Assembly: GCA_026395405.1 (NCBI GenBank)
Contig: JAPLYU010000001.1
Coordinates: 1 to 64,000, forward strand
Direction: 5' to 3'
Length of the DNA stretch: 64,000 nucleotides
Source: Candidatus Saccharimonadota bacterium
GTDB taxonomy: Bacteria > Patescibacteriota > Saccharimonadia > Saccharimonadales > Saccharimonadaceae
A program made the translations under genes and the position numbers. Shown in pieces: positions 5,329-33,313 of this stretch. Position 1 is the first letter of the stretch, and every line of letters begins with the position of its first letter. Under the pieces are notes generated by a model that saw nothing but the letters and a program-made list of their open reading frames with translations, did no database searches and was not told the origin of the DNA.

Positions 5329-5484
5329 AATTTGACCTACTATAACAGATAACACAAGGTATGACCAATTATCGTTCCATATATTTGCTTTACAAATAAA
5401 TTGATATGAAATAAACTTAGATAAAACTTAATAGAAACTAAAATTTATGTAATTCTCGGTGGAGAAATTAAGGTGGGTAACTGC

Positions 5485-6075
5485 GTGCCAAGCCGAAACG
5501 TAATTAAGGTTAACTTGCCGGTTAGTTATTATCACGTCTATGCTCGAGGCTCGAACAAACATCACATTTTTGGGGACGAGTCCGATTACCTGTATTTTTT
5601 ATCTCTTTTTACGCGTTACTTATCAAAAGAAAAATCTGATCCGCAATCAATCGACAATTATCAAAAATTATACGATTCGATTGAAGTACTAGCATATTGC
5701 TTGATGCAAAATCATTTCCATTTGTTACTGTATCAGATTGAAGAGGGCGGTATGTCGAAATTGATGCATGGAATTATGACCAGTTACAGCCGGTATTTTA
5801 ATCACAAATATAGCAGAAGTGGCCCTCTATTTGAAAGTCGCTACAAAGCATCGATGATTACGTCCGACGAATATTTATTGCATATAAGTCGTTATATTCA
5901 CTTAAACCCAGACGAATGGATAGATTATCCGCACTCGTCAGTCAGAGCCTATCTGTATAACGATATGCCCGACTGGATGAACAAAAAACGTATAGCCGAG
6001 CTGTACGGATCAGCAGTTAACTACCATAGATTCCTTGAAGACTACCAAAATAAAGATGAAAAAATCGAAATTTAA
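5485..6075 (+). CDS. REP-associated tyrosine transposase (RAYT, IS200-like Y1 fold)
   Basis: The start is set at GTG 5485 (MPSRNVIKVNLPVSYYHVYARG), which fits family N-termini and has AAGGTGG 7-8 nt upstream; the track start at 5473 adds four residues. The protein of about 196 aa carries the HUH motif in MQNHFHLLLY, the catalytic-tyrosine helix in TSYSRYFNHKYSRSG and the family signature GPLFESRYKA. RAYTs nick and rejoin single-stranded DNA at REP hairpins and are usually single-copy host-domesticated genes. Fittingly, a long hairpin of the same design begins 5 nt after the stop, with related hairpins at 3182 and 3763. No transposon ends or target duplications are evident. Confidence 0.8.
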   Translation: MPSRNVIKVNLPVSYYHVYARGSNKHHIFGDESDYLYFLSLFTRYLSKEKSDPQSIDNYQKLYDSIEVLAYCLMQNHFHLLLYQIEEGGMSKLMHGIMTSYSRYFNHKYSRSGPLFESRYKASMITSDEYLLHISRYIHLNPDEWIDYPHSSVRAYLYNDMPDWMNKKRIAELYGSAVNYHRFLEDYQNKDEKIEI

Positions 6076-18473: not shown

Positions 18474-19439
18474 ATGGCGGTATATAAAGTCCCCCAAGAT
18501 GTTGAAGCTGACGATAAATTAATCGGCCCGTTCAGTTTTCGCCAGTTTATTTATCTGGTAATCGTCGCTTTGGCGATAATGATGGCGTGGGGCTTGGCAC
18601 AATTATTTGTTCCCCTGTTAATCCTACCGTTGCCTATCGTCGTATTTTTTGGTGCATTAGCCTTGCCACTACGCAAAGACCAGCCCATGGAGATTTACAT
18701 GGCAGCGATGGTATCGTTTTTCCTGAAGCCACACCGAAGGCTATGGGATCCGGACGGTATTGATTCACTTATTGAAATTACAGTACCAAAAGTCATCGAA
18801 TACAGCCGAACCAAGGATTTATCTATGACAGAGGCCGAACGCCGATTTAGTTATTTGGCCGAAATCGTTGATAGCCAAGGTTGGGCTATCCGCGGACCCG
18901 GCGTTCAGGCTCCAAATAGTGCTATGACGAGCGATGCATATTTTGAAGCGCAGTCTGTCGAAGATATATTGGATATTGATGCGTCAACTTCACTTTCACT
19001 ATCTGATAAATTAAAACGAAGCGAAGTTCGCCTACACCAAGAGGCTGTAGACATCATGCATAAAAAGGTAGTTGTGCCCGAAATAAAACCAATAGCTATG
19101 CCTCAGGTGCAAAAACCAGCTCCAGCTCAGGCGATGCCGAGCCCTGCCAGTTATTTTGGTGGCGCACCACTCGTCGAACCCGCCACAGCTCCTGAACCAA
19201 CAGTCGCCACACCGCTCAACTACAACCCATACCCCGATATAAAACAAGCTGTCATTGAACCAATCGGTCAATCAAAACCAGTGGCCAAGCCCAAAACAAC
19301 CACTAGCGCAAAGGTGGTGCCAGCTGGTATAATAAACCTCGCTAGTAATACCGATTTAACAATCGCAGCTATTGCTCGTGAAGCTGATAGAATTCAGAAA
19401 AAACAAGACGCACAAGAAGTAGTCATCAAGCTTCGATAG
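18474..19439 (+). CDS. prgI: PrgI/VirB3-like T4SS membrane protein with long C-terminal tail
   Basis: The first 95 residues match the PrgI family: YKVPQDVEADDKLIGPFSFRQ, then two helices, then LRKDQPMEIYMAAMVSFFLKPHRRLWDPDG. PrgI is the VirB3 counterpart of Gram-positive and CPR T4SS and docks on VirB4, whose gene follows. The remaining 220 residues are cytoplasmic: a helical part (TEAERRFSYLAEIVDSQGW) and a Pro/Ala-rich linker. This is longer than the roughly 100-residue classical PrgI; the tail may recruit the ATPase. No SD is seen, only a -10 box close to the ATG. Confidence 0.8.
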   Translation: MAVYKVPQDVEADDKLIGPFSFRQFIYLVIVALAIMMAWGLAQLFVPLLILPLPIVVFFGALALPLRKDQPMEIYMAAMVSFFLKPHRRLWDPDGIDSLIEITVPKVIEYSRTKDLSMTEAERRFSYLAEIVDSQGWAIRGPGVQAPNSAMTSDAYFEAQSVEDILDIDASTSLSLSDKLKRSEVRLHQEAVDIMHKKVVVPEIKPIAMPQVQKPAPAQAMPSPASYFGGAPLVEPATAPEPTVATPLNYNPYPDIKQAVIEPIGQSKPVAKPKTTTSAKVVPAGIINLASNTDLTIAAIAREADRIQKKQDAQEVVIKLR

Positions 19440-19470: not shown

Positions 19471-20301
19471 ATGCCACCGAACAACCAAATACCAGACCAA
19501 CCGCCTGCCGCTCCAGCTGCAGGTAATTCTGCTATCCAGGGCTCTGGTACTAATACCCCTGCGCCGGTAAAACCAAAAAACCCTAACTCTACCCAAAACA
19601 CTCTGTTGCTATCAGAGGTCCGCGACAATATGGTAATTATGTCTGATGGATCATTTCGAGCAGTTGTTGCCTGCAAATCGATTAACTTCGACCTGATGAG
19701 TAGTACCGAACGCGAAGGCGTCGAATACAGTTATCAAAACTTTCTAAATGCTCTTAATCATCCAATCCAAATACTTATCAGGTCACAACGAATCGATATC
19801 GGTCCGTACATTGAACGCCTTGTCGAAATACGTCGCAACCAAGACAACATGCTGTTGAACGTTCTGATGGATGATTATATTGATTATATTGATATGCTTT
19901 CTCAAGAAGCGAACATTATGGACAAATCTTTTTTTATAGCAATCCCATACTATCCGCAGGGTGATGTTAATAACCTGGTTGAACAAGGCAAGGGATTCTT
20001 TGGCAGGCTACTTGGCGGAAATAAAAATATTATTACAAAAATTGATACCGTCACTTACGAGAAGGCCAAGACTGAAATTAAAAATCGGGTTGATGGAGTC
20101 ATGGCCGGCTTGTTTCAGTTGGGCATCCAAAGCGTTCAGCTAAACACCAAGGAGCTTGGTGAATTGTATTATAACTTTTACAATCCGGATACCGCAGTAC
20201 GCGAGCCATTGGGCGATTTCGACAGCGTAACATCGATTTATACTAAAAAGGCTACGACCGATACACCGGTTGCGCAGCCAGGAACAGGGGAAACGTCATG
20301 A
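19471..20301 (+). CDS. VirB4/TraC N-terminal-domain protein (276 aa)
   Basis: After a Pro/Ala-rich leader of about 45 residues the protein carries the N-terminal, non-ATPase part of VirB4/TraC proteins: LLLSEVRDNMVIMSDGSFRAVVACKSINFDLMSSTER, then LNALNHPIQILIRSQRIDI. No Walker motifs are present. It overlaps the following VirB4 ATPase gene by 4 nt, so the two are coupled. The pair together looks like a VirB4 whose membrane-interacting domain is encoded separately, an arrangement I associate with CPR T4SS loci. Confidence 0.7.
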   Translation: MPPNNQIPDQPPAAPAAGNSAIQGSGTNTPAPVKPKNPNSTQNTLLLSEVRDNMVIMSDGSFRAVVACKSINFDLMSSTEREGVEYSYQNFLNALNHPIQILIRSQRIDIGPYIERLVEIRRNQDNMLLNVLMDDYIDYIDMLSQEANIMDKSFFIAIPYYPQGDVNNLVEQGKGFFGRLLGGNKNIITKIDTVTYEKAKTEIKNRVDGVMAGLFQLGIQSVQLNTKELGELYYNFYNPDTAVREPLGDFDSVTSIYTKKATTDTPVAQPGTGETS

Positions 20302-22199
20302 TGGCACGAAAAAAATCTGACGTAGCTGAAATTGCCGCCGAGCAACGCGAACGCGAACAAGTCGAAGTCGAACAAGCCTTTTTAAAGGGCGTTACGACAC
20401 TTCGCGATTTAATCGCCCCCAGTAGTATCGAAATTCATTCGTCACACTTCCGCCTAGGTACGAAATACGGACGTACAATTTATATTTACGGATACCCACG
20501 ACAAATTTACACCGGTTGGCTTAGTTCGCTGATTAATATCGATGAGGTTTTGGATGTTAGCATGTTCATCTATCCGGTTGAAAGCCAAGTTGTTTTGAAA
20601 AACTTGCGCAAAAAAGTAACTCAACTAGAAGCATCAATGTCAATCAACAGTGAAAAGGGCCGGGTTCGTGACCCAGGCCTGGAAGCCGCCATTGGTGACG
20701 CCGAAGAACTGCGCGATCAATTGCAAGTCGGGGCAGAAAAATTCTTCCGATATGGGCTTTATGTTACGTTATATGCTGACAGCCTGGATGAATTGGGGTT
20801 CGTTCAACACAAAATCGAAACAATTTTCGGTCAGCAAATGGTTTTCAGCAAAGTTGCCAGCAGCCAACAGGAACAGGGTTTAAACAGCACAATTCCGCAA
20901 ATGTCCGACCAATTACAAATTCGACGCAATATGAACACTGGCGCAATCAGCACCAGCTTCCCCTTCACTAGCGCCGATTTGACCCAAGAAAAGGGTATAC
21001 TTTACGGAATTAACATGCATAATAATGGCCTGGTCATCTTTGACAGGTTCAGTTTAGAAAACGCCAACATGGTAGTATTTGCCAAAGCCGGCGCCGGAAA
21101 ATCTTTTACAGTTAAACTCGAAGCTTTGCGCAGTATGATGACAGGCACCGAAGTCATTATTATTGACCCGGAAAACGAGTACAAAAAATTGTGCGATGCA
21201 GTTGGCGGCAGCTATATCCGACTAAGTCTTAGCTCGAACACAAGGATTAATCCATTTGATTTACCTGGGGTAATCGACACGGACGAGGCCGATAATGCTC
21301 TTCGCGCCAATTTAATTACATTACATGGTTTATTAAAACTGATGCTGGGCACAACCCAGCCAACGACAACTGGTGTCCCAATGCCTTCCGCATTATCACC
21401 AGCCGAAGAAGCCGATCTAGACCAGGCATTAATCGATACCTACGCCCGTGTCGGCATTACAGCCGATCCGTTAACACATCAATCACTACCTCCAACAATC
21501 AGCGACTTGTACGACACGCTTTTGCATATGGGCGGCAGTGGCCCAAGTTTGGCACAGCGCCTACGAAAATACACCTCAGGCACGTTCGCTGGGATATTCA
21601 GCCAGCAGTCAAATACAGAAATTAATAATGCGCTAGTCGTATTCAATACGCGCGACCTAGAAGACGAACTGCGCCCAGTCGCGATGTACATAATCCTCAG
21701 CCATATTTGGAACATCATCCGTGCCGAGAAAAAACGACGAATGCTAATCGTTGACGAAGCATGGGAATTGATGAAATACGACGATTCAGCAAACTTTTTA
21801 TTTTCCTTGGCAAAACGAGCCCGAAAATATTATTTGGGTCTGACAACTATCACGCAGGACGTAGAAGATTTCATGAGCAGTAAAATGGGACGTGCCATTG
21901 TAGCAAATAGTTCAATGTCAATTCTGCTGAAACAGTCGCCTAGTGCTGTCGATGTTATGTCGAATGTATTCAAACTAACAGAAGAGGAAAAGAAGCGTTT
22001 GGCTAATTTCCCAATTGGACAGGGGTTATTCTTTGCCGGACAAAGCCATGTTCACATCCAAATTGACGCCAGTGATACCGAAAAACAAATTAGCAACACC
22101 AACCCCCAAATTGTAGACCAACCGATAGGCACACAACCTGCTCAACCAAGCAGCGGGCCCAGCGCCAGTAGTTATATTAACCCCGGGTCAAGCGTTTAA
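20298..22199 (+). CDS. virB4: VirB4-like T4SS ATPase
   Basis: A 633-residue AAA+/HerA-type ATPase. The N-terminal half keeps a VirB4 domain (VLDVSMFIYPVESQVVLKNLRKKVTQLEA; SSQQEQGLNSTIPQMSD). Walker A is FAKAGAGKSFT near residue 261; Walker B is RMLIVDEAWELMK near residue 484; the later TTITQDVEDFMSS carries the Gln sensor. VirB4 drives pilus assembly and substrate transfer at the inner membrane. The start could be either of two adjacent ATGs. It lies directly after the N-domain gene and before the peptidase-bearing membrane protein. Confidence 0.9.
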   Translation: MMARKKSDVAEIAAEQREREQVEVEQAFLKGVTTLRDLIAPSSIEIHSSHFRLGTKYGRTIYIYGYPRQIYTGWLSSLINIDEVLDVSMFIYPVESQVVLKNLRKKVTQLEASMSINSEKGRVRDPGLEAAIGDAEELRDQLQVGAEKFFRYGLYVTLYADSLDELGFVQHKIETIFGQQMVFSKVASSQQEQGLNSTIPQMSDQLQIRRNMNTGAISTSFPFTSADLTQEKGILYGINMHNNGLVIFDRFSLENANMVVFAKAGAGKSFTVKLEALRSMMTGTEVIIIDPENEYKKLCDAVGGSYIRLSLSSNTRINPFDLPGVIDTDEADNALRANLITLHGLLKLMLGTTQPTTTGVPMPSALSPAEEADLDQALIDTYARVGITADPLTHQSLPPTISDLYDTLLHMGGSGPSLAQRLRKYTSGTFAGIFSQQSNTEINNALVVFNTRDLEDELRPVAMYIILSHIWNIIRAEKKRRMLIVDEAWELMKYDDSANFLFSLAKRARKYYLGLTTITQDVEDFMSSKMGRAIVANSSMSILLKQSPSAVDVMSNVFKLTEEEKKRLANFPIGQGLFFAGQSHVHIQIDASDTEKQISNTNPQIVDQPIGTQPAQPSSGPSASSYINPGSSV

Positions 22200-22216: not shown

Positions 22217-25150
22217 ATGCAACCAAAAAACAAAAATCCAATTCAAGATGAATACGACCACAACTTGGCACCTGAGTTTGACCACCTTAAACAGGCTGAG
22301 CAAACCGGCACTGCGAGTGATTCAAATACCGATAGCGTTAAAAATGCCGAAGAAAATCCCAAAGGAAATTGGAGTAATAACGTTACGGGTACTGGTAGCG
22401 GTGGCAGAGGAAGAAATACTTCAAGCACTTCCGGCAATAAATCAAATAGTGCCATAAGCAACCACACCGGCCCCACTAATGCAAAAATCAAAATCACTTC
22501 TTTAAAAAAGAAAGGGCCCCTCGTCGCAATTATCATCACTCTTGTTGGTGGCAGTATCGGCATCGTCTCGCTGTTGTCCCCCAGTTTATTGATAGTTCAA
22601 TTCAAAGAAGTAATGGTCAATAAATTCAATAGCCAACTGGCTAGTATGGATGTTAGAAATACCAAACTTCTCTCCAAGAAAATGGGAACAACCAAGGGCT
22701 TATGCACCACACCTGCAAGTATATTATGCAAGTACAGCACGATGTCCGAAAAACAGGTTGCAAAGTTTGAAAAAGCCGGAATCCATGTTGTTTCAGATGG
22801 AGATAAAACCTTGCTCGGCAGAGTAAGGCCAAAAAGCTTCAAATTTCAGGGAAAATCTATTTCTGCAAAGAATTTTTCTAAAGAAATAGGGAAAAATCCC
22901 GAATTCAGGTCTGCCGTCAAGTTGGCCTATAACCCAAAATTTGCAGGTTTTGCGGACGCTATCTGGGCCAAAGCAGCCGCTAAACTGGGCATTTCGAAGA
23001 AAGCCGCTAATATTGACGGGAATACTGATGATGAACGACTGAAGAGCATACAGGAGGATACAAAAAACCCGGCAGCAACGGACGCGGCAGCAACCGAGCG
23101 CGTTCCTAACTCGGGTGAAACGAACCCTGACACTGGTAATCCATATACTCAAGATGAAATAGATGCAATAAAAAAGAAAAATATTGCCGCTGCGGCGGCC
23201 AACGAATTGGCGTCTGGTGCAGAAACCGCTGCAAAGAACGCCGCCAAAGCCGCCCCAGCCGTTCTCGCCGGTGCGAAAAGCGCCGTCAACACACTTAAAG
23301 TAACAGGTTTAATGGATAACGCTTGCACAGTATATGGGACTATCCAGGCAATCGGCTATGCCGCAAAAACAGTCCGAGCACTACAACTAGCCCGTTACGC
23401 TATGATATTCCTAAATGTAGCTGACCAAATAAAATCTGGCGACGCCAAGGCCAAGGACGTGTCATATTTAGGTACAATATTAACTACCGAGTTTATTTCG
23501 AAAAATAAAAGCGGAAATATCGTATCTAGAAAGTCCGCTACCGCATCTTTTGGATATAATTTTGCGGCTTATGGTCATAGGGGCACGATGTCCAACACGG
23601 CCTCTCAATTCTTGGCGGGAGGAGGGTTAACTGGTGACCTGATTAATATGACCTCTAAAATAAACTCAATTCTTCACGGATCTCCAAAAAAGACCTGTGG
23701 TGTTTTAAATAATCCTATTGTCAGTGTCGGTTCATTGGTCGGTGGTATAGCCTTATTCCTGATCCCCGGAGCCCAACCCGCTATAGGTGCGTGGGACGCT
23801 ATTAAGGCTGCGGCGGGGATAGCGCTAAATGTCGCGATGTCTTATGCCCCAGCACTATTACAAGATATTGTTGCCGGTGTATTGGTCGATAAAACTACTG
23901 TCGGTGAGGCTGCCGGTGATGCAATTACCTCAGGGTCATCTGGTATTATGAGCACGGCGGCAAAAACCGGCGGGAACGCTCCGCTAACACCGTCCCAGGC
24001 TGTGGCGTACAGTAATTTATCAAGCGATATTGCCGCCCAATATGCACAAGAAGATCAATTAGCATACGGTCCTCTCGACCCCAGCAACAGTAACACATTC
24101 ATGGGGAAGATTGTCGGACAGCTAACGCCTTATCTTTCAAATATGTCGTCGCTTTCCGGAATTTTCAGTTCAATAACTTCCATCACCACGGGTTCATTTG
24201 CCACATTAACAGCTCAAACAGCCAATGCCACAAGCACTGGTGATTACACAATGTGCCAAGACGATGATTATAAAGCTTTGGGACTAGCCACGGACCCATA
24301 TTGTAATGTTACTTACGGCATACCCCCAGAAGCACTAAAAGCCGACCCAATTGACGTAGCAAGCACTTTAATTAATAGTGGCCAGATAGACCCCGATACT
24401 GGAGACCCGATGTCGGGGAGTGATTATGAATCATTCGTTGCGGAGTGTACTGATCGCGCCACTCCACTTGGGGACACCGGTTCTGGCAATACAGAACCCG
24501 ATGGGTCTGCATGTATCTTCGGTAAAGACTATAAGGGTACGCCTAATAATAATTACTATATCCACTACATAGATCAACGAGTTCAAACTGGTCTGGACGG
24601 AGAAGAGATGGCATCCAACACGACGACGGACCCCAGTACAACCACCGGTGGGACAACCGCGCCAAGCGGGACCGACCGTCCTGATAATGTGGTCTCTTCA
24701 GGGAAGGGTTGGACGCTAAAAGATGGTGTGGACTATTCAAGCGTACAGTGCGCCAGTGGCACAACCGACAAGGGGACATACCATCATCCGGTACGAAAAT
24801 TTACCATTCGGCTGTGCCAAACGGCCATTGGTGAAGTCGCGTCAATAATATCGCAAAAGGCAATTGATATGATAAATGCAGCTAAAAAAGATGGTATCTC
24901 ACTAACGGGCAGTGGCTTCCGAAGCTACGAAGAGCAAAAAGCTATATACGCACAAAATTGTCACGGTGGGGTTTGTAGTCCCCCAACAGCCGTCCCGGGT
25001 AATTCAAATCACGAAAAGGGCACGGCGTCTGATCTCCATAATATCAGTGTCGGTAATGCGGCCTGGAATTGGTTAACGGCACATGCTGCCGATTATGGAT
25101 ACATTAACTTCCCTGCGGAGGCTTGGCATTGGTCAATGAGTGGTAATTAA
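22217..25150 (+). CDS. T4SS-associated membrane protein with C-terminal VanY/M15 peptidase
   Basis: 977 residues. The first 95 are polar and Ser/Asn/Gly-rich; one strong helix follows (PLVAIIITLVGGSIGIVSLLSP), then an exported Ala-rich region with further hydrophobic stretches near 505-560. The C-terminal domain (about 860-977) is an M15B D,D- or L,D-carboxypeptidase: GSGFRSYEEQ, zinc-site SNHEKGTASDLH and EAWHWS, supplying H, D, E and H. This would cut peptidoglycan stem peptides. Its place between VirB4 and another hydrolase suggests a VirB1-like role of clearing the wall for the secretion channel. Confidence 0.8.
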   Translation: MQPKNKNPIQDEYDHNLAPEFDHLKQAEQTGTASDSNTDSVKNAEENPKGNWSNNVTGTGSGGRGRNTSSTSGNKSNSAISNHTGPTNAKIKITSLKKKGPLVAIIITLVGGSIGIVSLLSPSLLIVQFKEVMVNKFNSQLASMDVRNTKLLSKKMGTTKGLCTTPASILCKYSTMSEKQVAKFEKAGIHVVSDGDKTLLGRVRPKSFKFQGKSISAKNFSKEIGKNPEFRSAVKLAYNPKFAGFADAIWAKAAAKLGISKKAANIDGNTDDERLKSIQEDTKNPAATDAAATERVPNSGETNPDTGNPYTQDEIDAIKKKNIAAAAANELASGAETAAKNAAKAAPAVLAGAKSAVNTLKVTGLMDNACTVYGTIQAIGYAAKTVRALQLARYAMIFLNVADQIKSGDAKAKDVSYLGTILTTEFISKNKSGNIVSRKSATASFGYNFAAYGHRGTMSNTASQFLAGGGLTGDLINMTSKINSILHGSPKKTCGVLNNPIVSVGSLVGGIALFLIPGAQPAIGAWDAIKAAAGIALNVAMSYAPALLQDIVAGVLVDKTTVGEAAGDAITSGSSGIMSTAAKTGGNAPLTPSQAVAYSNLSSDIAAQYAQEDQLAYGPLDPSNSNTFMGKIVGQLTPYLSNMSSLSGIFSSITSITTGSFATLTAQTANATSTGDYTMCQDDDYKALGLATDPYCNVTYGIPPEALKADPIDVASTLINSGQIDPDTGDPMSGSDYESFVAECTDRATPLGDTGSGNTEPDGSACIFGKDYKGTPNNNYYIHYIDQRVQTGLDGEEMASNTTTDPSTTTGGTTAPSGTDRPDNVVSSGKGWTLKDGVDYSSVQCASGTTDKGTYHHPVRKFTIRLCQTAIGEVASIISQKAIDMINAAKKDGISLTGSGFRSYEEQKAIYAQNCHGGVCSPPTAVPGNSNHEKGTASDLHNISVGNAAWNWLTAHAADYGYINFPAEAWHWSMSGN

Positions 25151-25151
25151 T

Positions 25152-25676
25152 ATGAAAAAAAGAATTATTATAATTTCGGCATCAATCACGGCAATAGTAA
25201 TTATTATCGTTGGGGCAGTGATTTTTAGTAGTCATCATAACACTCAAAAACAAGTAACTACGACTAAGAACACTTCAAATGGCATCGTCAAGATCGAAAA
25301 GGGCCTAGAATCTATGGCGAAAATTGCAATCCCTGCTGTAGAAAATTACGCAACCCAGGACCCGTTGGAATCGTATAATTCTCGCAAAAACCGCCTTATC
25401 CCTTATTTTGCCCCAGATAGTCCTGTATTCAACCGAGTACTGGATATTCAAAACCCAGATACGGGTATAGCCAAAACCAGAGCAAAGGTTACATCTGTTA
25501 GTTTGTCAAAAACAGCCGAGGGAACTTATCCGTTCCTTATAGTGGGGGCTAAAGTGGCTAATTATTCAGATGCAACAAAACTCATCAACACCGAACTTCA
25601 AACCTACTGGATTATCATCAAAACAAACCCCGATGGATCATTTATTGCTAATGACATAGGGATATGGGTGGAATAG
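25152..25676 (+). CDS. Small membrane-anchored protein (174 aa)
   Basis: ATG 25152 lies just after the previous stop; the track start at 25140 is a GTG overlapping that gene. One N-terminal helix (IIIISASITAIVIIIVGAVIFSS) anchors an exported domain of about 140 residues with mixed strands and helices (YATQDPLESYNSRKNRLIPYFAPDSPVF; VTSVSLSKTAEGTYPFLIVGAKV). Size and layout resemble small VirB8- or TrbF-like scaffold domains, but no diagnostic motif is seen, so this stays a guess from context. Confidence 0.6.
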   Translation: MKKRIIIISASITAIVIIIVGAVIFSSHHNTQKQVTTTKNTSNGIVKIEKGLESMAKIAIPAVENYATQDPLESYNSRKNRLIPYFAPDSPVFNRVLDIQNPDTGIAKTRAKVTSVSLSKTAEGTYPFLIVGAKVANYSDATKLINTELQTYWIIIKTNPDGSFIANDIGIWVE

Positions 25677-25677
25677 T

Positions 25678-28092
25678 TTGAGCAAATCAATGAAAAAATA
25701 TTTATCTAAAATTATTTTATGTATTTGCACGTCAGTGATGGTTATTTCTGCCATTATGCCATTAAAGGTATTCGCAGTTCCCGTCGACTACTCTTTTTAC
25801 AGTGCAAACGACATACTGTTTCATGACCCTAACGCCTGCGGCGGCTCGACGCCAAACACAGCAACAATAGGTGCATCAAATGGTAATGTCTATGCCTTGG
25901 GTGATTCTATTTTAGCGGCCACACAAAGCAAATTAACTAGCGAATTAAAAAAGGCGGGTTATTCAAAAGCGGATTTTAATGCTGTGGTTGGAAGGGCAAT
26001 AATTACACCGGGCTCAGGAACTACGGCCCTGCAAGGTGCAACAACCGATAAAGCAAAAATTGCAGCTGCAGGTACGATTTTGATTGTGCTTGGCACCAAT
26101 GGCGGTGACTATAAAAGCGATATTCCAAAATTAATGAAAATTATCAAAGACGCCAATTCCAGCGCTAGAATTTTCTGGGTCAATGTTGGGGTGGGGACAA
26201 GACAAGGAGCAAAAGCTGAACAGAGCTATATAGATGCCATGAATAAAGACAACCCGGATATTAATAGTCTCAAAGACACCTATCACTATTCGGTTATAGA
26301 CTGGCATAATGAAGTTGTCTCCAACCCATCACTAATGGATGCTAATGACCATGTACATCCCAGTGGTTCTACTGTTGATAAATATGTTAGTAATATAATG
26401 AAAAGTCTTGGTAATTACACCAGTGGTGGGACTGGTAATAGTGCAACAGCATCCGGCGCTGGCAGTCCGGGAGCGGGCGGTACTGACACTACGACAGGCG
26501 GGGACCCAAAGTATGGCACCGGTCCAGCCACTGCCGGCCAGGGTCATACTTGGAAAACCGGTATAGCATCCTTATTCGGAGGAACAAACGATAGCCAGCC
26601 TACTAGCTTTGGTGAAAATTCCGTCACCATGAATGACGAGAATGTCTTTTATTTCGCAATTTTGCCGAAAGACTATCCTGACGTCGGCGCCAACCCTAAC
26701 ACGCCAAAAGTATTAAAAGACGCTGTCAAATCGGGAAAGTTTAATCCAAGAGATAAGTTAATTTTTAAAAAAGGCAATAAATATGCTATAGGAGCTTGGC
26801 TAGACGTCGGTCCTGGTGCGGCGGGTAATGGCAGGTGGCTGGATTTGAGTGTGAAACTTGCTAAATATTTAGGCGTTCCCGGCCAAGCTGGCGTAGGTGA
26901 TTTACAATGGGATTTCCTTAGTGGCAGTGACGCCGCTAACGCTGCTGGTACTACTAGTACGGACGCTGCCGGCTGTTGTCCTAGCGATACCAGCAGTACC
27001 GGTTCCGGCGGCGGAGCGCCCGTCAAGGGATCAAGACAAGCCCAAAACGCCGCAACGGTGTGGAATTTTCTTACTGGTAAGGGGCTTTCGGCAACAGGAG
27101 CCGCTGGTGTCCTGGGTAATCTGCAACTTGAATCTGGGATTTACCCAAATACTGTTAATGGGGGCTCACCAAGCGACAGCGTAACACCGGGTCATGCATA
27201 CGGACTCGCCCAGTGGTTGGGCGGCAGACAGGATGACTTGCATACAATGGCAGTAAAAAATGGGGTCAAGGACTCAGATTTAAATACCCAAATAGAATTA
27301 TTGTGGAAAGAAATGCAGCCGGGTTCTTCACAAGAACCGTTTGTCCATACATTAGTAAAAGACCTTAATGCAGCTTCAACTGCAGAAAGTGCCGCAGTTC
27401 TTTTTGAGGCTGCATACGAAAGATCTGGCGGAGCTGGCAATACACAAAGGCAACAATATGCTGGAGATTGGTATAAAAAGTTAAAAAACTATGCCGGCAC
27501 CGGCTCTACAACGCAAGAATGTAGTTCTGGTTCAACCAATAGCGCCGGTCAATACGGCTGGGAAAAGACTGGTCCAAACGCAATGGTTTATTACGCCCAA
27601 TGTAACCCTAAATGGGCCGGCAATAGCTATGGGGGCAGTGGTTCCATATGTGAATCAGGATGTGGACTGACTTCTACTACGATGATTCTAGCCACTTTAA
27701 CCGGCAACAAATCGATAGCACCGGATAAAATGGCAGTAAAATACGGAGTTTACCATGTCCCCGGAGGGACGTCCCACGCTTTATTCCATAAAGCCGCTTC
27801 TGATTATGGGCTAAAAGATAGGGATCTTGGAATGAATTTCGATGCAGTTAGAGATATACTTCAAAAGGGCGGTTTAGTTATTATGGGAGCTAATGCTGGA
27901 TACTTTACTACCGGTGGGCACTTAATGGTTATTAGGGCTATGACAGCTGACGGCAGTAAGTTTTATGTGGCAGACCCAGCCCGACCGAACGGTAATTATA
28001 CCGCTACAACAGAATCACGCGAAGGGCCGTTTACACCAGAGTTTTTGACTGGCCAAGGTAGCGTGGTAACCCTGTGGGGGATTTGGAAATAA
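25678..28092 (+). CDS. Secreted four-domain wall-degrading protein (SGNH, barrel-like, phage lysozyme, C39-like peptidase)
   Basis: A TTG start follows GGTGGA. Signal helix to about residue 33. Domain 1 (about 60-245) is an SGNH hydrolase: ALGDSI, LGTNGGD, DHVHPSG. Domain 2 (about 290-417) is a possible RlpA-like barrel with AIGAWLDVGPG and RWLDLSVKLAKYLG. Domain 3 (about 450-607) resembles phage tail lysozyme, with likely catalytic Glu in GNLQLESGI near 485. Domain 4 (about 620-804) is a C39-like cysteine peptidase: SGCGLTSTTM (Cys near 662), GGHLMVIR and VADPARP. Gly/Ser/Thr linkers separate the domains. Substrates are inferred: acyl groups, glycan strands and peptides of a cell wall, or proteins. 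Confidence 0.8.
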   Translation: MSKSMKKYLSKIILCICTSVMVISAIMPLKVFAVPVDYSFYSANDILFHDPNACGGSTPNTATIGASNGNVYALGDSILAATQSKLTSELKKAGYSKADFNAVVGRAIITPGSGTTALQGATTDKAKIAAAGTILIVLGTNGGDYKSDIPKLMKIIKDANSSARIFWVNVGVGTRQGAKAEQSYIDAMNKDNPDINSLKDTYHYSVIDWHNEVVSNPSLMDANDHVHPSGSTVDKYVSNIMKSLGNYTSGGTGNSATASGAGSPGAGGTDTTTGGDPKYGTGPATAGQGHTWKTGIASLFGGTNDSQPTSFGENSVTMNDENVFYFAILPKDYPDVGANPNTPKVLKDAVKSGKFNPRDKLIFKKGNKYAIGAWLDVGPGAAGNGRWLDLSVKLAKYLGVPGQAGVGDLQWDFLSGSDAANAAGTTSTDAAGCCPSDTSSTGSGGGAPVKGSRQAQNAATVWNFLTGKGLSATGAAGVLGNLQLESGIYPNTVNGGSPSDSVTPGHAYGLAQWLGGRQDDLHTMAVKNGVKDSDLNTQIELLWKEMQPGSSQEPFVHTLVKDLNAASTAESAAVLFEAAYERSGGAGNTQRQQYAGDWYKKLKNYAGTGSTTQECSSGSTNSAGQYGWEKTGPNAMVYYAQCNPKWAGNSYGGSGSICESGCGLTSTTMILATLTGNKSIAPDKMAVKYGVYHVPGGTSHALFHKAASDYGLKDRDLGMNFDAVRDILQKGGLVIMGANAGYFTTGGHLMVIRAMTADGSKFYVADPARPNGNYTATTESREGPFTPEFLTGQGSVVTLWGIWK

Positions 28093-28111: not shown

Positions 28112-28756
28112 ATGATGGATAGCAGAAGAAAAATCATACTACTTGGCTCGGCCGGATTCTTTGTCGTATTAATTGTAATAGCTTTGCTATACACATATTA
28201 TGCAGGCAAAGCCAGTGTCAGTATCATCGTAGCCCCAACAGATTCTGAATTAATTCTGGACAATAATTCGCACGTAAATGCAGGCGATAGTATGCTGACT
28301 TTGGGTACCCATACAATAAAAGTTAGCCGGTCTGGCTTTGCCAGTAAGACCCTGCAGTTCGTCGTTAGCAAAAATGACTCAAATATAGTCCCGATAGCGC
28401 TTGTACCAAATAGCAGCGAGGGCAATACTTATTTGATAAACCACTCGTCAGATTTTGTAAAAGTTGGAGATTTGGAAATACCTCAAACTGACGCCATAAA
28501 TCGAGCAATAAAACAACAATCGCCAATTATCAAGGCACTCCCGATTGACGTTTCGCCATTATACGTAATAACTTACGGAACATCGGTAAAATATCCTACT
28601 GACCCTTCTAAATTTGCAATATACATAAACGCCGCGACTCCGGCCGGAAGACAATATGCATTAAGGGATTTAAATGACAGGGGCTTTGATGTATCTGATT
28701 ATGAGATAGTTTTTGACACGGTTAATAATAACAATGGAGGCAGCAATGGGAATTAA
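28112..28756 (+). CDS. Membrane-anchored PEGA-domain protein
   Basis: 214 residues: N-terminal helix (IILLGSAGFFVVLIVIALLYTYY), then a PEGA-like beta unit (SVSIIVAPTDSELILDNNSHVNAGDSMLTLGTHTIKVSRSGFASK) and a second alpha/beta domain of about 110 residues. PEGA units are common in surface proteins that touch glycans. GGGGGATTAA lies before the ATG pair. It overlaps the next gene by 11 nt. Part of the distal T4SS cluster; probably a structural or adhesion component. Confidence 0.7.
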   Translation: MMDSRRKIILLGSAGFFVVLIVIALLYTYYAGKASVSIIVAPTDSELILDNNSHVNAGDSMLTLGTHTIKVSRSGFASKTLQFVVSKNDSNIVPIALVPNSSEGNTYLINHSSDFVKVGDLEIPQTDAINRAIKQQSPIIKALPIDVSPLYVITYGTSVKYPTDPSKFAIYINAATPAGRQYALRDLNDRGFDVSDYEIVFDTVNNNNGGSNGN

Positions 28757-29495
28757 AGGAATACGTGTGCCCAAAATGGTTATTTTTGCCGTATTAGCAC
28801 TTTTGGTTATCCTGGCGTGTATGCTTATTTGGAATTATTTGGCCTCACTGGAAAAAGTTACCCTAAACCCGACACCTGGGTCAACAATAACTCTCAGTAG
28901 TGTTAATAAGGATGGCTCCAATGCAAAGACTGTAAAGACAACCGGTTCTCGCATTGAAATAAGCGTGCAAAGTGGATACTATTTAGTCAAGTATGGTAAG
29001 GGTGGCGAATACCAAGATCAAACGGAAAAAATATTGATTAACAAGCCCCTAACTATTACGACTCCGGAATTAAGCTATACGGATAAAAAACTTAACCAAT
29101 TACTATCTGACGATAAATCCATAATTCACCAGACCATTTTTACTTTTATTGGCAGCGATACTAGTTACAGAATCGTCGATGATAAACTATATTTAGAGGG
29201 TGAGTGGTATAGTGCCAAACTAGTCCCGAAAGATTTCTTCTTGCCACCACCAGCCAACAGCGACCCTACACTACTGATGCCGCCAAATGATAATAATACA
29301 TTGGATATGTTACGAGTTGTGTTAAAGAAAAGTGATAACAACTGGGATGTTGTGGCAAAGCGTACAGTTCTGGCATTTGATAATTACCCCGATATACCCA
29401 AGGGCGTAATAACTGGGGCAAACAAGTTTGGTATATTCAGTTCTATTGATGGTTGCACGAAAATTGATCACGGATACTGCGTAAAAATTAATTAA
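28746..29495 (+). CDS. Membrane-anchored beta-rich protein (249 aa), PEGA-like
   Basis: ATG 28746 follows GGAGG with 5 nt spacing; the track start at 28713 is upstream of this SD. One helix (MVIFAVLALLVILACMLIWNYL) is followed by a PEGA-like strand pattern (KVTLNPTPGSTITLSSVNKDGSNAK; YYLVKYGKGGEY) and a second domain. It resembles the preceding gene in layout, so the two may be diverged duplicates. Its end overlaps the convergent recF stop by 8 nt, closing the T4SS cluster directly against the replication genes. Confidence 0.65.
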   Translation: MGIKGIRVPKMVIFAVLALLVILACMLIWNYLASLEKVTLNPTPGSTITLSSVNKDGSNAKTVKTTGSRIEISVQSGYYLVKYGKGGEYQDQTEKILINKPLTITTPELSYTDKKLNQLLSDDKSIIHQTIFTFIGSDTSYRIVDDKLYLEGEWYSAKLVPKDFFLPPPANSDPTLLMPPNDNNTLDMLRVVLKKSDNNWDVVAKRTVLAFDNYPDIPKGVITGANKFGIFSSIDGCTKIDHGYCVKIN

Positions 29496-30546
29496 GATTG
29501 ACCAGGTTTGCGCTTTTCTTGAAACCCTTTATCACCACGTCGGCATCGGTTGTAGTAATAATTGTTTGATAATTTTTAAGATATTTTGTTATGGCTTGAC
29601 GGCGCGATGCATCCAGTTCGCTAAACACATCGTCCAGTAGGATGATTGGTTTTGTGTTGGTAATTTGCTCGATGATTTCAACTTCCATAAATTTGATCGC
29701 CAGGACTATAGTTCGAACCTCGCCCCGCGAGGCGACGTCTAGGGCAGAGTAGTTATTAAACTTGAATATGACATCGTGTCGATGTGGTCCGGTGCTGGTA
29801 AAGCCCAAAGCTTTGTCTCGCTCTATATGGCTGTGCAGGTCGTTTAATAGTTTTTGTTTAATATCGCCAATATACGTATTCGAATAGTGGACTGATGCAA
29901 TATTGTGCGACATTGCGATTAAATTGTACTGGTCGTTTAACTTACTGTTTATTTGCTCAATAAATGCAATTCTTTTTTCAATAATATATGCGCCGTATTC
30001 ACTAATCGCAATATCCCACACAAATAATTCATTTTGGCCGACGCTGTGTTTTTTTAGTAAATTGTTACGTTGTTTCAAGGCTCGCTCGTATTTATGAATG
30101 GCGCTTTGGTACATTGGGTCCAACTGGCTGATAAAACGATCGATAAATTGACGCCTGCGGGTTGGCGAGCCGTGCAACAACCTCAAATCGTCCGGTTCGA
30201 ATAAAACAACCGGGTGTCTGAGTTTTGCGGGTAGTCGATACATGGTTTTATCACCAACAACTATCTTTTTCCGACCCGCGGTTAATTCAGGATTATAGGT
30301 TATCGTTCTTTTGATAAAATTATCAAATTCAATATCTATACGCCACCAAGGCGAATCGTAACGAAGAATGTCATTGTCGGTTCCTTTAAACGATGTGCCT
30401 TGAAGCGCAACATAAATTGCCTCGATTATCGACGTTTTTCCACTGCCATTATTCCCAACGATTACCGTAACGGTGGGTGAAAGCGTAATTTTAAACTTAT
30501 CGTGCGAACGAATATTCTCTACAGATAGTTTTTTTACCACCGTCAT
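29488..30546 (-). CDS. recF: DNA replication and repair protein RecF
   Basis: 352 residues of the RecF SMC-like ATPase family: Walker A VGNNGSGKTSIIEAIY, RecF-specific FEPDDLRLLHGSPTRRRQFID, signature VASRGEVRTIVLAIK and Walker B PIILLDDVFSELDASRR. RecF loads RecA at single-strand gaps and is often in the dnaA-dnaN-recF order seen here. It starts 12 nt after the dnaN stop. TATAAC lies 5 nt before its ATG, so it may also have its own leaderless transcript. Confidence 0.95.
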   Translation of the reverse strand: MTVVKKLSVENIRSHDKFKITLSPTVTVIVGNNGSGKTSIIEAIYVALQGTSFKGTDNDILRYDSPWWRIDIEFDNFIKRTITYNPELTAGRKKIVVGDKTMYRLPAKLRHPVVLFEPDDLRLLHGSPTRRRQFIDRFISQLDPMYQSAIHKYERALKQRNNLLKKHSVGQNELFVWDIAISEYGAYIIEKRIAFIEQINSKLNDQYNLIAMSHNIASVHYSNTYIGDIKQKLLNDLHSHIERDKALGFTSTGPHRHDVIFKFNNYSALDVASRGEVRTIVLAIKFMEVEIIEQITNTKPIILLDDVFSELDASRRQAITKYLKNYQTIITTTDADVVIKGFKKSANLVNLN

Positions 30547-30558
30547 GACAAGTTATAA

Positions 30559-31659
30559 TTAACTCTTTAAAGGCATAATAATATGGTAATAATCTGTGTC
30601 GGGTTTAGTCGACTTCAGTACGCATGGTGCGATTTTACCACTGAACCGAAATTCAACTTCGTCGCCGTCAATTACCGACAGCGCTTCGCTTAGGTATCGT
30701 GAATTTAATGTAATGTGGCCGTCGCTGGTAACTTTTGCACTTGTTTCTGAATTGTTTTCGCCAAATTGTGACGCGATTGAATGAACCGATAGGGCATTCT
30801 TTTCTTTGTCGGCTGTTATCGTTACACTTCCACCGGATTCCCTGGCAAACAAACCGGCGATTTTAGTTATTCGAATAAAATCGTTTTTATTCAGACTTAC
30901 GGTTGTTTCAGATGACTTTGGTACCAGTTGGCGATAATTTGGGAAATTACCGTCAATCAAACGGCTGATAATTTCAGCGTCGTTAATCCTGAACCTTACT
31001 TGTGTGTCATCGAATAAAATATCGATTTCACTGGAATCGTCGGTAATGTTTCGCATAACTTCAGACAATGTTTGGGTTGGGATAATTGCCGATACTTCGC
31101 TTTTGGTTTCAACCAGGCGTCGTTCTGACAAACGATAACCGTCAGTCGCGGCTAAGAACAATTGTCCTTCAAATGAATTCCAATACACCCCTGTTAAAAT
31201 TGGACGGGTTGAGTCGTTGCTGGTGTTAATAATTGTTTGTGAAACAGCGTGTTTAAAGTCGTCGGTTTTAATGCTGTATTGGATCGATGATGATTCATTG
31301 ATTGTTGGAAGTTCAGGAAATTCATCGGCAATAAACCCGTTGATTGTTGATGTATAAGTTCCGCTTTTTATATGAAGGTTGTCATTTACCACTTTAAGTT
31401 CGATTGATTCTTTGGGTAAACTAGCTATAAATTCTGTCATTAGTTTTGCTGGAATTGTAATTGCACCCTGTTTTACAACTTTTGCACCGATATATTGAGT
31501 TGATGCGATCTCCAAATTTGTTGCGGCTACAAGTAAGCGGTTACCGTCTGTTCGAAGAAGGATATTACTCAGTATTGGTAATTGGGTTTTTGTACTTGCA
31601 ACACGGCCAACGGCAGATAGTGCGCGATTTAGATTTTCTTGGGTGACGGTTAGTTCCAT
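30559..31659 (-). CDS. dnaN: DNA polymerase III sliding clamp (beta subunit)
   Basis: 366 residues, the normal length of a three-domain beta clamp. Visible landmarks are LPILSNILLRTDGNRLLVAATNLEI, TRPILTGVYWN, LFLAATDGYRLSERR and the C-terminal SKTKPD...YHIIMPL (as STKPDTDYYHIIMPLK). The clamp tethers DNA polymerase III to template. SD AAAGG lies 9 nt before the ATG. It is between dnaA and recF as in most bacteria. Confidence 0.97.
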   Translation of the reverse strand: MELTVTQENLNRALSAVGRVASTKTQLPILSNILLRTDGNRLLVAATNLEIASTQYIGAKVVKQGAITIPAKLMTEFIASLPKESIELKVVNDNLHIKSGTYTSTINGFIADEFPELPTINESSSIQYSIKTDDFKHAVSQTIINTSNDSTRPILTGVYWNSFEGQLFLAATDGYRLSERRLVETKSEVSAIIPTQTLSEVMRNITDDSSEIDILFDDTQVRFRINDAEIISRLIDGNFPNYRQLVPKSSETTVSLNKNDFIRITKIAGLFARESGGSVTITADKEKNALSVHSIASQFGENNSETSAKVTSDGHITLNSRYLSEALSVIDGDEVEFRFSGKIAPCVLKSTKPDTDYYHIIMPLKS

Positions 31660-31936
31660 TATTATTACCTTTCTTTAAATTTCATTTTTTAGGTTTATTA
31701 ATAGGTCTTGTGGATAATGGGTAAAACTTTTATTCAACAGATTAATTCCGTGTAAATTGGGTGTGTTTTCGGCTGTGGAAGGTTGTGGTAAAGACTGTCC
31801 AATACACACAACTTTTACTATCCGAATAACATATTTATATTGTTTATGTAAAGTTATTGGGGATGGGTAATCGCATGATTTACCCTCTTGTTTGCGCAGG
31901 TTGTTCACAATTTTTACCCATGGGTTGAATACAATA
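31660..31936. other. dnaA-dnaN intergenic region with DnaA-box cluster
   Basis: Contains a perfect box TGTGGATAA (31709-31717) plus near matches TGTGGAAGG (31774), TGTGGTAAA (31784) and TTGTTCACA (31901), with AT-rich stretches between. GGGTAA...TTTACCC forms a short inverted repeat near 31865-31885. An 89-codon minus-strand frame crosses it but looks non-coding. Candidate part of the origin or dnaN control region. Confidence 0.5.
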
Positions 31937-33313
31937 TTAGGCATACAATTTCTCCCTTATTGAAGCTACTTGTTCGCGAATAAGAAAATCTAATTTGATA
32001 GCTTTTTCAATTTTCTCAATCGAGTGGATTGCTGTGGTGTGATCTTTTCGCCCCAATTCACGTGCGATTTTTGGAAAACTCAGGTGTAATTCGCTTCGCA
32101 GTAGGTACATTGCAATTTGCCTAGGGACAACAATGTATTTATCTCGTTTTTCGCCGCAAATCTCGTCTAGTTCTAATTGGAAATGTTTGGCGGTCTTATC
32201 AATAATCTGTTTGCTGGACAGGTGTTGTGGTCGCGAATGGCGAATGTTCCCCAGTAGTCCTTCAGCAGTCGAAATATCCGGTTCAATCCCTCGCATTTCG
32301 GCATAAGCCAGCAACTGATTTAATGCACCTTCAAGTTCACGGATATTAGTTTTTATGTTGGTTGCTAGATATTCAGTGGTTTCATGATTCAGGGTTACGC
32401 CGGATTGCGCAGCTTTAATGGTTAAAATTGCACATCGGGTTTCAAAATCAGGCATTTGGATATCAATTGCCATACCCATTTCAAAACGGCTTCGCAAACG
32501 TTCAGTTAGAGTTGGAATGCTTTTAGGTGGTTTGTCGCTACTGATAATAATTTGTTTATTGTTTTGGTGCAGGTGATTAAAAGTGTGAAAGAATTCTTCC
32601 TGAGTTTTTTCCTTGCCGGCGATAAACTGCATGTCATCAACGATTAATACATCGACATTGCGGTATTTTTCAGAAAAACCCTTTTTCTTGAACCGAATAT
32701 GGTCTAAAAATTCACTAACAAAAGTTTCTGAACTAATATATAAAACCCGGATTTTTGGATCTTTTTTAATGATTTCATTACCAATTGCCTGGGCAAGGTG
32801 AGTTTTACCCAAACCAACACCACCATACAAATACAGCGGGTTGTATTTAACTCCCGGATTAGCAGCAACTGCTTGGCTTGCTGTATATGCCAAGTCATTA
32901 CTGGAACCAACGATGAAATTATCAAATGAATATCGTGGGTTTAGGTTGCCAACAGAAGTTTGACCGATTTTTGATTTATTATTAACAGACAGTAACCCGT
33001 CAATATCAGTATTCGGCGTAGTGGCGGTGGTTGTTTCGCGGCTGGAACGCGAGTGTTTGCCGGACGTGTTGATGGTGTAGGTGATTTGTTTCGGGTTAAT
33101 GCCGTTTTTAGACAAAACGCCACGAACCTGATCGTTGAATTTAACTTCGAATTGTTTTTTAGCAAAAATATTTGGAACGGAGATGACGATGCCGGCTTCG
33201 TTTTGGTCTAGCAGTTCAGTGTTTTTAAACCACGTCGTAAAAGTAGCATGTGAAACCGAAAGTTCGATTTCTCCAAGCACACTTTGCCACAACGCCGCAT
33301 TTTGCATTTTCAT
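31937..33313 (-). CDS. dnaA: Chromosomal replication initiator DnaA
   Basis: 458 residues with all four domains: N-terminal DnaB-interaction part (LWQSVLGEIELSVSHATFTTWFK), a short linker, AAA+ domain with Walker A GGVGLGKTHLAQ near residue 165 and Walker B VLIVDDMQFIAGKEKTQEEFFHTFN, and the domain IV helix-turn-helix signature GRKDHTTAIHSIEKIEKA. It binds DnaA boxes and melts the origin. Boxes lie on both sides of the gene, one inside its promoter, suggesting autoregulation. GAGG lies upstream of the ATG. Confidence 0.98.
   Translation of the reverse strand: MKMQNAALWQSVLGEIELSVSHATFTTWFKNTELLDQNEAGIVISVPNIFAKKQFEVKFNDQVRGVLSKNGINPKQITYTINTSGKHSRSSRETTTATTPNTDIDGLLSVNNKSKIGQTSVGNLNPRYSFDNFIVGSSNDLAYTASQAVAANPGVKYNPLYLYGGVGLGKTHLAQAIGNEIIKKDPKIRVLYISSETFVSEFLDHIRFKKKGFSEKYRNVDVLIVDDMQFIAGKEKTQEEFFHTFNHLHQNNKQIIISSDKPPKSIPTLTERLRSRFEMGMAIDIQMPDFETRCAILTIKAAQSGVTLNHETTEYLATNIKTNIRELEGALNQLLAYAEMRGIEPDISTAEGLLGNIRHSRPQHLSSKQIIDKTAKHFQLELDEICGEKRDKYIVVPRQIAMYLLRSELHLSFPKIARELGRKDHTTAIHSIEKIEKAIKLDFLIREQVASIREKLYA

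Follow-up and report, generated by a model that had tools for sequence, protein, structure and literature searches.

The gene at positions 25678 to 28092 (+ strand) of the window, by which we mean the whole 64,000-nucleotide stretch of DNA that was analyzed, is likely to encode the wall hydrolase of a dnaA-proximal chromosomal T4SS. In our view, it has the place and the probable role of a VirB1/PrgK-type enzyme, and its exchangeable set of modules is probably matched to the walls of host cells. The ORF is real and, judged from sequence, its 804-amino-acid product is an exported multidomain protein that probably cuts the bacterial wall, and comparison with related genomes indicates that its cutting modules are repeatedly exchanged between relatives. 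A VirB1-like wall hydrolase in the T4SS of Saccharibacteria is known in kind, and it is the combinatorial behavior of the gene that is new.

The hydrolase gene resides in a T4SS locus next to dnaA

The window belongs to the 855-kb genome of a saccharibacterium, and close relatives from named collections are assigned to Candidatus Saccharibacteria. Encoded upstream of the hydrolase on the same strand are a PrgI/VirB3-like protein (18474–19439; PF12666), a TrsD-like protein (19471–20301; NF041427, E 1.6e-5, which is below the cut-off for that profile), and a VirB4 ATPase of the CD1110 family (20298–22199; NF045971, 368 bits). These are followed by a large protein of 977 amino acids (22217–25150, +) whose C-terminal VanY carboxypeptidase domain (amino acids 876–973) is recognized by Pfam, and which is called VirB6-like by its position and size only, with no profile match. 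A 178-amino-acid protein with one N-terminal hydrophobic stretch is encoded directly upstream of the hydrolase (25140–25676, +). Downstream are the ORFs for two small proteins (28112–28756 and 28713–29495, +), which by synteny are found 3′ of the hydrolase in many relatives, and then recF-dnaN-dnaA on the opposite strand (29488–33313, −; assigned by Pfam), which probably mark the side of the locus where oriC lies. Beyond dnaA are rnpA and then yidC. An IS200-like transposase (Y1_Tnp) is located at 5473–6075, upstream of the T4SS locus.

The order VirB4, VirB6-like protein, hydrolase, small proteins, and recF-dnaN-dnaA is kept in most of the relatives compared, and we refer to the position of the hydrolase in this order as the slot. 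The operon context proposed in an earlier sequence-only reading is thus borne out by the PrgI-like, TrsD-like, VirB4, and VirB6-like genes upstream and by synteny in relatives. With regard to its assignment as VirB1-like, the window protein is placed in a T4SS locus by the VirB4 and VirB6-like genes, and its glycan-cutting domain keeps the catalytic residue E485.

Three enzyme domains can be recognized in the slot protein

The architecture of the protein, as established from its ORF, Pfam matches, conserved catalytic columns, and AF2 models searched with Foldseek, consists of an SGNH domain, an unassigned domain previously called a "barrel," a phage-type lysozyme, and a C39-like peptidase, joined by Gly/Ser linkers. 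The ORF begins with TTG, and an in-frame ATG (Met5, 25690) is an equally plausible or more plausible start. The N terminus is signal-like (MKKYLSKIILCICTSVMVISAIMPLKVFA), and amino acids 1 to 33 (25678–25776, +), which end in ...PLKVFA, were judged by eye from their composition to be a Sec-type signal sequence. This is followed by a leader motif at amino acids 37 to 54 (DYSFYSANDILFHDPNAC; 25786–25839, +) that occurs in a loose form in 51 of the 74 slot proteins collected, compared with about five expected from shuffled sequences. AF2 was run on two half-chains (amino acids 34–438 and 436–804); a single full-length alignment had misplaced SGNH fragments.

The SGNH hydrolase domain (amino acids 68–248; 25879–26421, +) was recognized by profiles, AF2, and Foldseek. 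Its PF13472 (SGNH/GDSL) match to amino acids 73 to 229 (E 6e-4, 20.7 bits) is below the curated cut-off of 32.9, which is exceeded by the relatives L029, L030, L031, L033, and L034. The window protein nevertheless carries the GDS serine (S77), the GxN block (GTN, G139/N141), and the DxxH block (D224xxH227) within an SGNH fold, from which the catalytic triad is assigned as S77, D224, and H227. When slot relatives are compared by profile alignment, Ser77, Gly139, Asn141, and His227 are present in 15 of 15 sequences and Asp224 in 11 of 15. The SGNH portion of the AF2 model for amino acids 34 to 438 is mostly confident (block means of 67–94 pLDDT), and Foldseek matched this half to 4h08 (4e-8), to PatB (6e-5 to 4e-4), and more weakly to Ape. 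The closest matches of the SGNH family profile to PDB sequences, which rest on a nine-row profile, are the acetyl/acyltransferase chains 6vjp, 6wn9, 5ufy, and 5ug1 (2e-20 to 7e-18), which we take to be OatA domains. Known SGNH enzymes of peptidoglycan O-acetylation (6vjp and 5ufy; PatB, 7tjb; Ape, 4k3u) thus resemble this domain in the SGNH fold, the Ser-His-Asp motif, and wall-glycan chemistry, but identity is low and the likeness is at the level of fold and profile. Each SGNH copy in a slot protein with readable modules is accompanied by a glycan-cutting module (the middle module of L032 was unread), a pairing that fits an order of action in which de-acylation precedes glycan cutting.

Sequence matches above the curated cut-off define the lysozyme domain (amino acids 455–603; 27040–27486, +), which was assigned by Pfam, conserved columns, Foldseek, and profile comparison. 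PF18013 (phage tail lysozyme) matches amino acids 456 to 602 across profile positions 1 to 140 with an E-value of 3e-33 (115 bits versus a cut-off of 28.2). Residue E485 sits in a conserved GNxQxES stretch that is common to phi29 gp13, and profile alignment of slot relatives places Glu485 in 61 of 63 domains and Glu581 in 60 of 63. The lysozyme family profile matches phi29 gp13 (3csr/3csq) at 8e-23, and the lysozyme-C39 alignment also matches a Gp16 chain at 3e-15. In the AF2 model of amino acids 436 to 804 (mean pLDDT 79.7), the lysozyme and C39 domains are both well folded, and Foldseek matched this half to phi29 gp13 at 7e-6. In a sample of the phylum, PF18013 was present in 19 of 287 genomes, 15 from the class of the window genome and four from one family of another class. 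Two relatives carry a separate gene (L024, 6547–7827; L035, 8067–9236) with DUF348, G5, and PF18013 domains, which resembles a YabE-type protein ending in a lysozyme.

The C-terminal domain is a C39-like papain-fold peptidase (amino acids 632–804; 27571–28089, +), as judged by Pfam, conserved columns, and Foldseek. It matches PF13529 at amino acids 638 to 768 (E 1e-12; 49 bits versus a cut-off of 24) with Cys-His-Asp residues present (C662, H748, D766), and its model matched the pseudomurein endoisopeptidase PeiR (8z4h; E 4.5e-4). Among slot relatives in the profile alignment, Cys662 and His748 are found in 15 of 16 sequences and Asp766 in 13 of 16. In one slot protein (L084, 14867–16123), the catalytic Cys of the C39 domain is replaced by Ala, and this module is possibly inactive.

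Searches with the second domain (amino acids ~285–420; 26530–26937, +; 151-amino-acid query) yielded neither a homologue nor a confident fold. No relative was found in 198 genomes of the order or 28 of the genus, there was no match in phages, plasmids, viral contigs, Pfam, or PDB sequences, and PHROGs returned a single chance-level match. Three weak matches (E 0.001–0.007) were recovered from 380 genomes of the phylum, and these are taken to be due to chance because, with both strands read, the frames that match resemble a GatA-type amidase in L122, a phosphoesterase-like protein in L123, and a glycosyltransferase in L124. AF2 modeled the region poorly (pLDDT 30–56). An identity as a double-psi beta-barrel or GH75 domain, suggested by its appearance, failed in profile tests: PF03330 (double-psi) and PF07335 (GH75) gave no match in amino acids 285 to 420 up to E 10 in the genome, and PF06725, also a double-psi profile, gave none at 1e-3. 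So far, this domain has been seen in the window protein only, and its identity could change the overall picture of the slot protein.

Of the four domains originally proposed, the SGNH, lysozyme, and C39-like domains therefore stand with their catalytic residues, and the "barrel" is unconfirmed. Likewise, the idea of esterase-like, glycan-cutting, and peptide-cutting modules separated by flexible linkers on one exported chain is supported for three domains. Structure prediction, whose failure in two or more domains would have told against the earlier reading, gave folded models for three of them that resemble solved enzymes of the kind expected, and the catalytic columns of these three are conserved.

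Linker cysteines follow a regular pattern

Reading of the linkers of the window protein after the signal sequence revealed Cys54 before the SGNH domain, a Cys433-Cys434 pair before the lysozyme (26974–26979, +), and Cys615 in the last linker before the C39 domain (27520–27522, +). This arrangement follows a general rule among slot proteins, in which one cysteine comes first, one comes last, and the linkers between have either none or a CC or CxC pair. In 51 proteins with modules readable at both ends (the window protein included), the linker cysteines always add up to an even number, whereas those of the last linker are always odd in number, with exactly one in 50 of the 51. Leaving the last linker aside, 28 linkers separate modules; 14 of these lack cysteine, 12 contain a pair (CC or CxC in every case), and two contain a single one. 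Note that these counts were entered by hand for proteins chosen as readable, so that P values computed from them do not amount to a fair test; proteins with unreadable modules were left unscored, and VanY-bearing proteins were left unjudged because they have too many cysteines. An apparent exception is L048, which ends at a contig end.

The counts suggest that the linker cysteines close the modules by disulfides. A DsbA-like protein with a thioredoxin fold is encoded in 30 of 30 genomes (the window genome and 29 relatives). VKOR, with which the DsbA-like proteins of Actinobacteria commonly pair, was sought as disulfide support; it occurs in 19 of the 30 genomes but was not found in that of the window, which counts against such disulfides.

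Cutting modules are exchanged among close relatives

A search of genome contigs with the whole slot protein yielded no match, and relatives were found via VirB4 alignment. Pfam families were counted over the 74 slot proteins collected. Lysozyme is present in 62 of these. The families number 22 in total and are mostly wall-active; they include C39 in 15, GDSL in 11, CHAP in nine, M23 and Amidase_3 in six each, NlpC/P60 in four, M15 and SLT in three each, and GH3 and Exo_endo_phos in two each, with single cases of GH43, glucosaminidase, ELLD, PlyCA_N, a beta-lactamase-like domain, and VanY. These modules form 24 architectures that require at least 34 changes on the labeled rows of a 71-row VirB4 tree, of which 21 are for the C-terminal module alone and four for SGNH; the counts are approximate because the tree was built quickly and 18 of its forks are weak, and the module labels were partly set by hand. 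The hydrolase of the window and that of its nearest relative (L021/L041) are only 34% identical, compared with 94% for VirB4, 95% for DnaN, 91% for RecF, and 62% for the VirB6-like protein.

In L042 it is the slot protein that carries VanY, and in the window it is the VirB6-like protein, a difference suggesting that exchange also occurs between neighboring genes. C-terminal domains of the VirB6-like protein vary, with VanY in the window and L041 and M23 in L064 (just below the cut-off), L071, L073, L075, and L104; Exo_endo_phos is found on this protein in L061 and L064. In two slot proteins (L081, 11611–13686; L099, 15504–17588), an endonuclease/exonuclease/phosphatase-type domain precedes the lysozyme. 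Another (L093, 16562–18793) has a GH43 glycosidase, a lysozyme, and CHAP. Because a GH43_31 enzyme participates in the breakdown of mycobacterial-type galactan (PMC10115798), a host with an arabinogalactan-containing wall is conceivable for the latter.

Neither the combinatorial exchange nor the cysteine pattern is described in the literature searched, which was mostly outside subscription papers and supplementary tables.

Comparison with known wall hydrolases

In Patescibacteria, T4SS genes have been reported near dnaA (PMC12102498). The T4SS of Southlakia epibionticum ML1 is reported to be essential (PMC10633639), and lysozyme and peptidase homologues encoded immediately downstream of virB4 are reported to be essential for its epibiotic growth (PMC12102498). 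By description, the ML1 locus (SEML1_0006-0019; PMC10633639, PMC12102498) is likewise a chromosomal saccharibacterial T4SS with lysozyme and peptidase genes right after virB4. These two papers hold no description of module exchange, an SGNH module, or linker cysteines.

A multidomain wall hydrolase is also a standard part of Gram-positive T4SSs (PMC12857230), where PrgK (pCF10), TraG (pIP501), and Orf14 (Tn916) are VirB1-like. Like the slot protein, these are exported multidomain hydrolases, encoded alongside VirB4/VirB6, that combine glycan and peptide cutting. In contrast, their domains are of the SLT/MUR, CHAP, and LytM types and they are said to be membrane anchored, whereas the slot protein has a phage-type lysozyme, C39, and SGNH domains and varies by wide exchange among relatives. 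No SLT, CHAP, or LytM-type domain is present in the window protein, and some slot proteins of relatives do contain SLT, CHAP, or M23. Furthermore, 305 plasmids match the slot protein, of which 216 are typed as conjugative. A protein of the relaxase-bearing plasmid pWCFS103 (WP_011222037, 384 amino acids), encoded two genes after a VirB4-like ATPase, combines the same PF18013 lysozyme with NlpC/P60, but has two modules only and lacks SGNH and C39. The lysozyme family also includes phi29 gp13 and tail lysins of Bacillus phages. Phi29 gp13 couples its lysozyme to an M23 peptidase; it differs from the window protein in being a phage tail part whose second enzyme is M23 rather than C39, and the relative L028 has a lysozyme and M23. 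Because a lysozyme plus peptidase near VirB4, as in the plasmid protein, is a known arrangement for wall hydrolases, the earlier statement that no standard T4SS part has such a set goes too far.

A proposed role at the host wall

We consider a wall-breaching role to be the best reading of the slot protein. The protein would be exported where the epibiont contacts its host. The SGNH domain would take O-acyl groups off the wall glycan and so open it to the lysozyme, which would cleave the glycan, and the C39-like domain would cleave stem peptides or cross-links, permitting local passage of the T4SS through the wall. Disulfides between the linkers would turn single modules, or pairs of them, into closed loops. 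Module exchange would track variation in wall chemistry, most likely that of the host. That modules have been exchanged again and again suggests an enzyme fitted to the walls to be breached, and exchange among close relatives favors the host wall over the epibiont's own as the target. More tentatively, and with somewhat less than even confidence, we propose that this is a hypervariable disulfide-stapled enzyme whose module set suits the chemistry of the host wall in each epibiont and in this way has a part in determining host range.

For the known VirB1 proteins of Gram-positive systems, the wall of the donor itself is regarded as the site of action. The slot enzyme may similarly open only its own wall for T4SS assembly, with module variety reflecting drift or own-wall variation. 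Enzymes of the PrgK/TraG type are presented mainly as aids to assembling the channel (PMC12857230), and the same slot with the same basic pair of lysozyme and peptidase occurs on conjugative plasmids. However, we find this explanation rather doubtful, since at least 34 architecture changes among organisms whose VirB4 and DnaN are mostly 80 to 95% identical are hard to explain with a presumably conserved own wall, and modules such as the GH43 of L093 are not standard peptidoglycan enzymes.

It is less probable still that the protein is a released lysin, which would digest the host wall and feed the epibiont rather than make way for a channel. Such a lysin would be in keeping with a signal-like N terminus followed by no recognizable further membrane or wall anchor, and with several catalytic activities per chain, as in phage lysins. 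Against it are the constant place of the gene within the T4SS locus, seen in almost every relative examined, and the essentiality reported jointly with the T4SS (PMC12102498, PMC10633639). An adhesin that binds the wall but has lost catalysis, a use proposed for some VirB1 homologues without activity in Gram-positive systems (PMC12857230), would be in line with the lost C39 cysteine of L084. It is very improbable, however, given that the lysozyme retains its glutamate in 61 of 63 domains, the SGNH domain its serine and histidine in 15 of 15, and the C39 domain its cysteine in 15 of 16.

The wall-breaching reading bears on two questions, namely how Saccharibacteria, which are ultra-small parasites, get past the walls of the actinobacteria they live on and what confines each of them to particular hosts. 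Here one gene keeps its place next to a secretion system that is reported to be essential, while its modules differ in close relatives, and this makes both questions testable with purified modules and with epibionts cultured together with their hosts. The slot also offers a natural collection of modules active on walls, drawn from a little-studied group.
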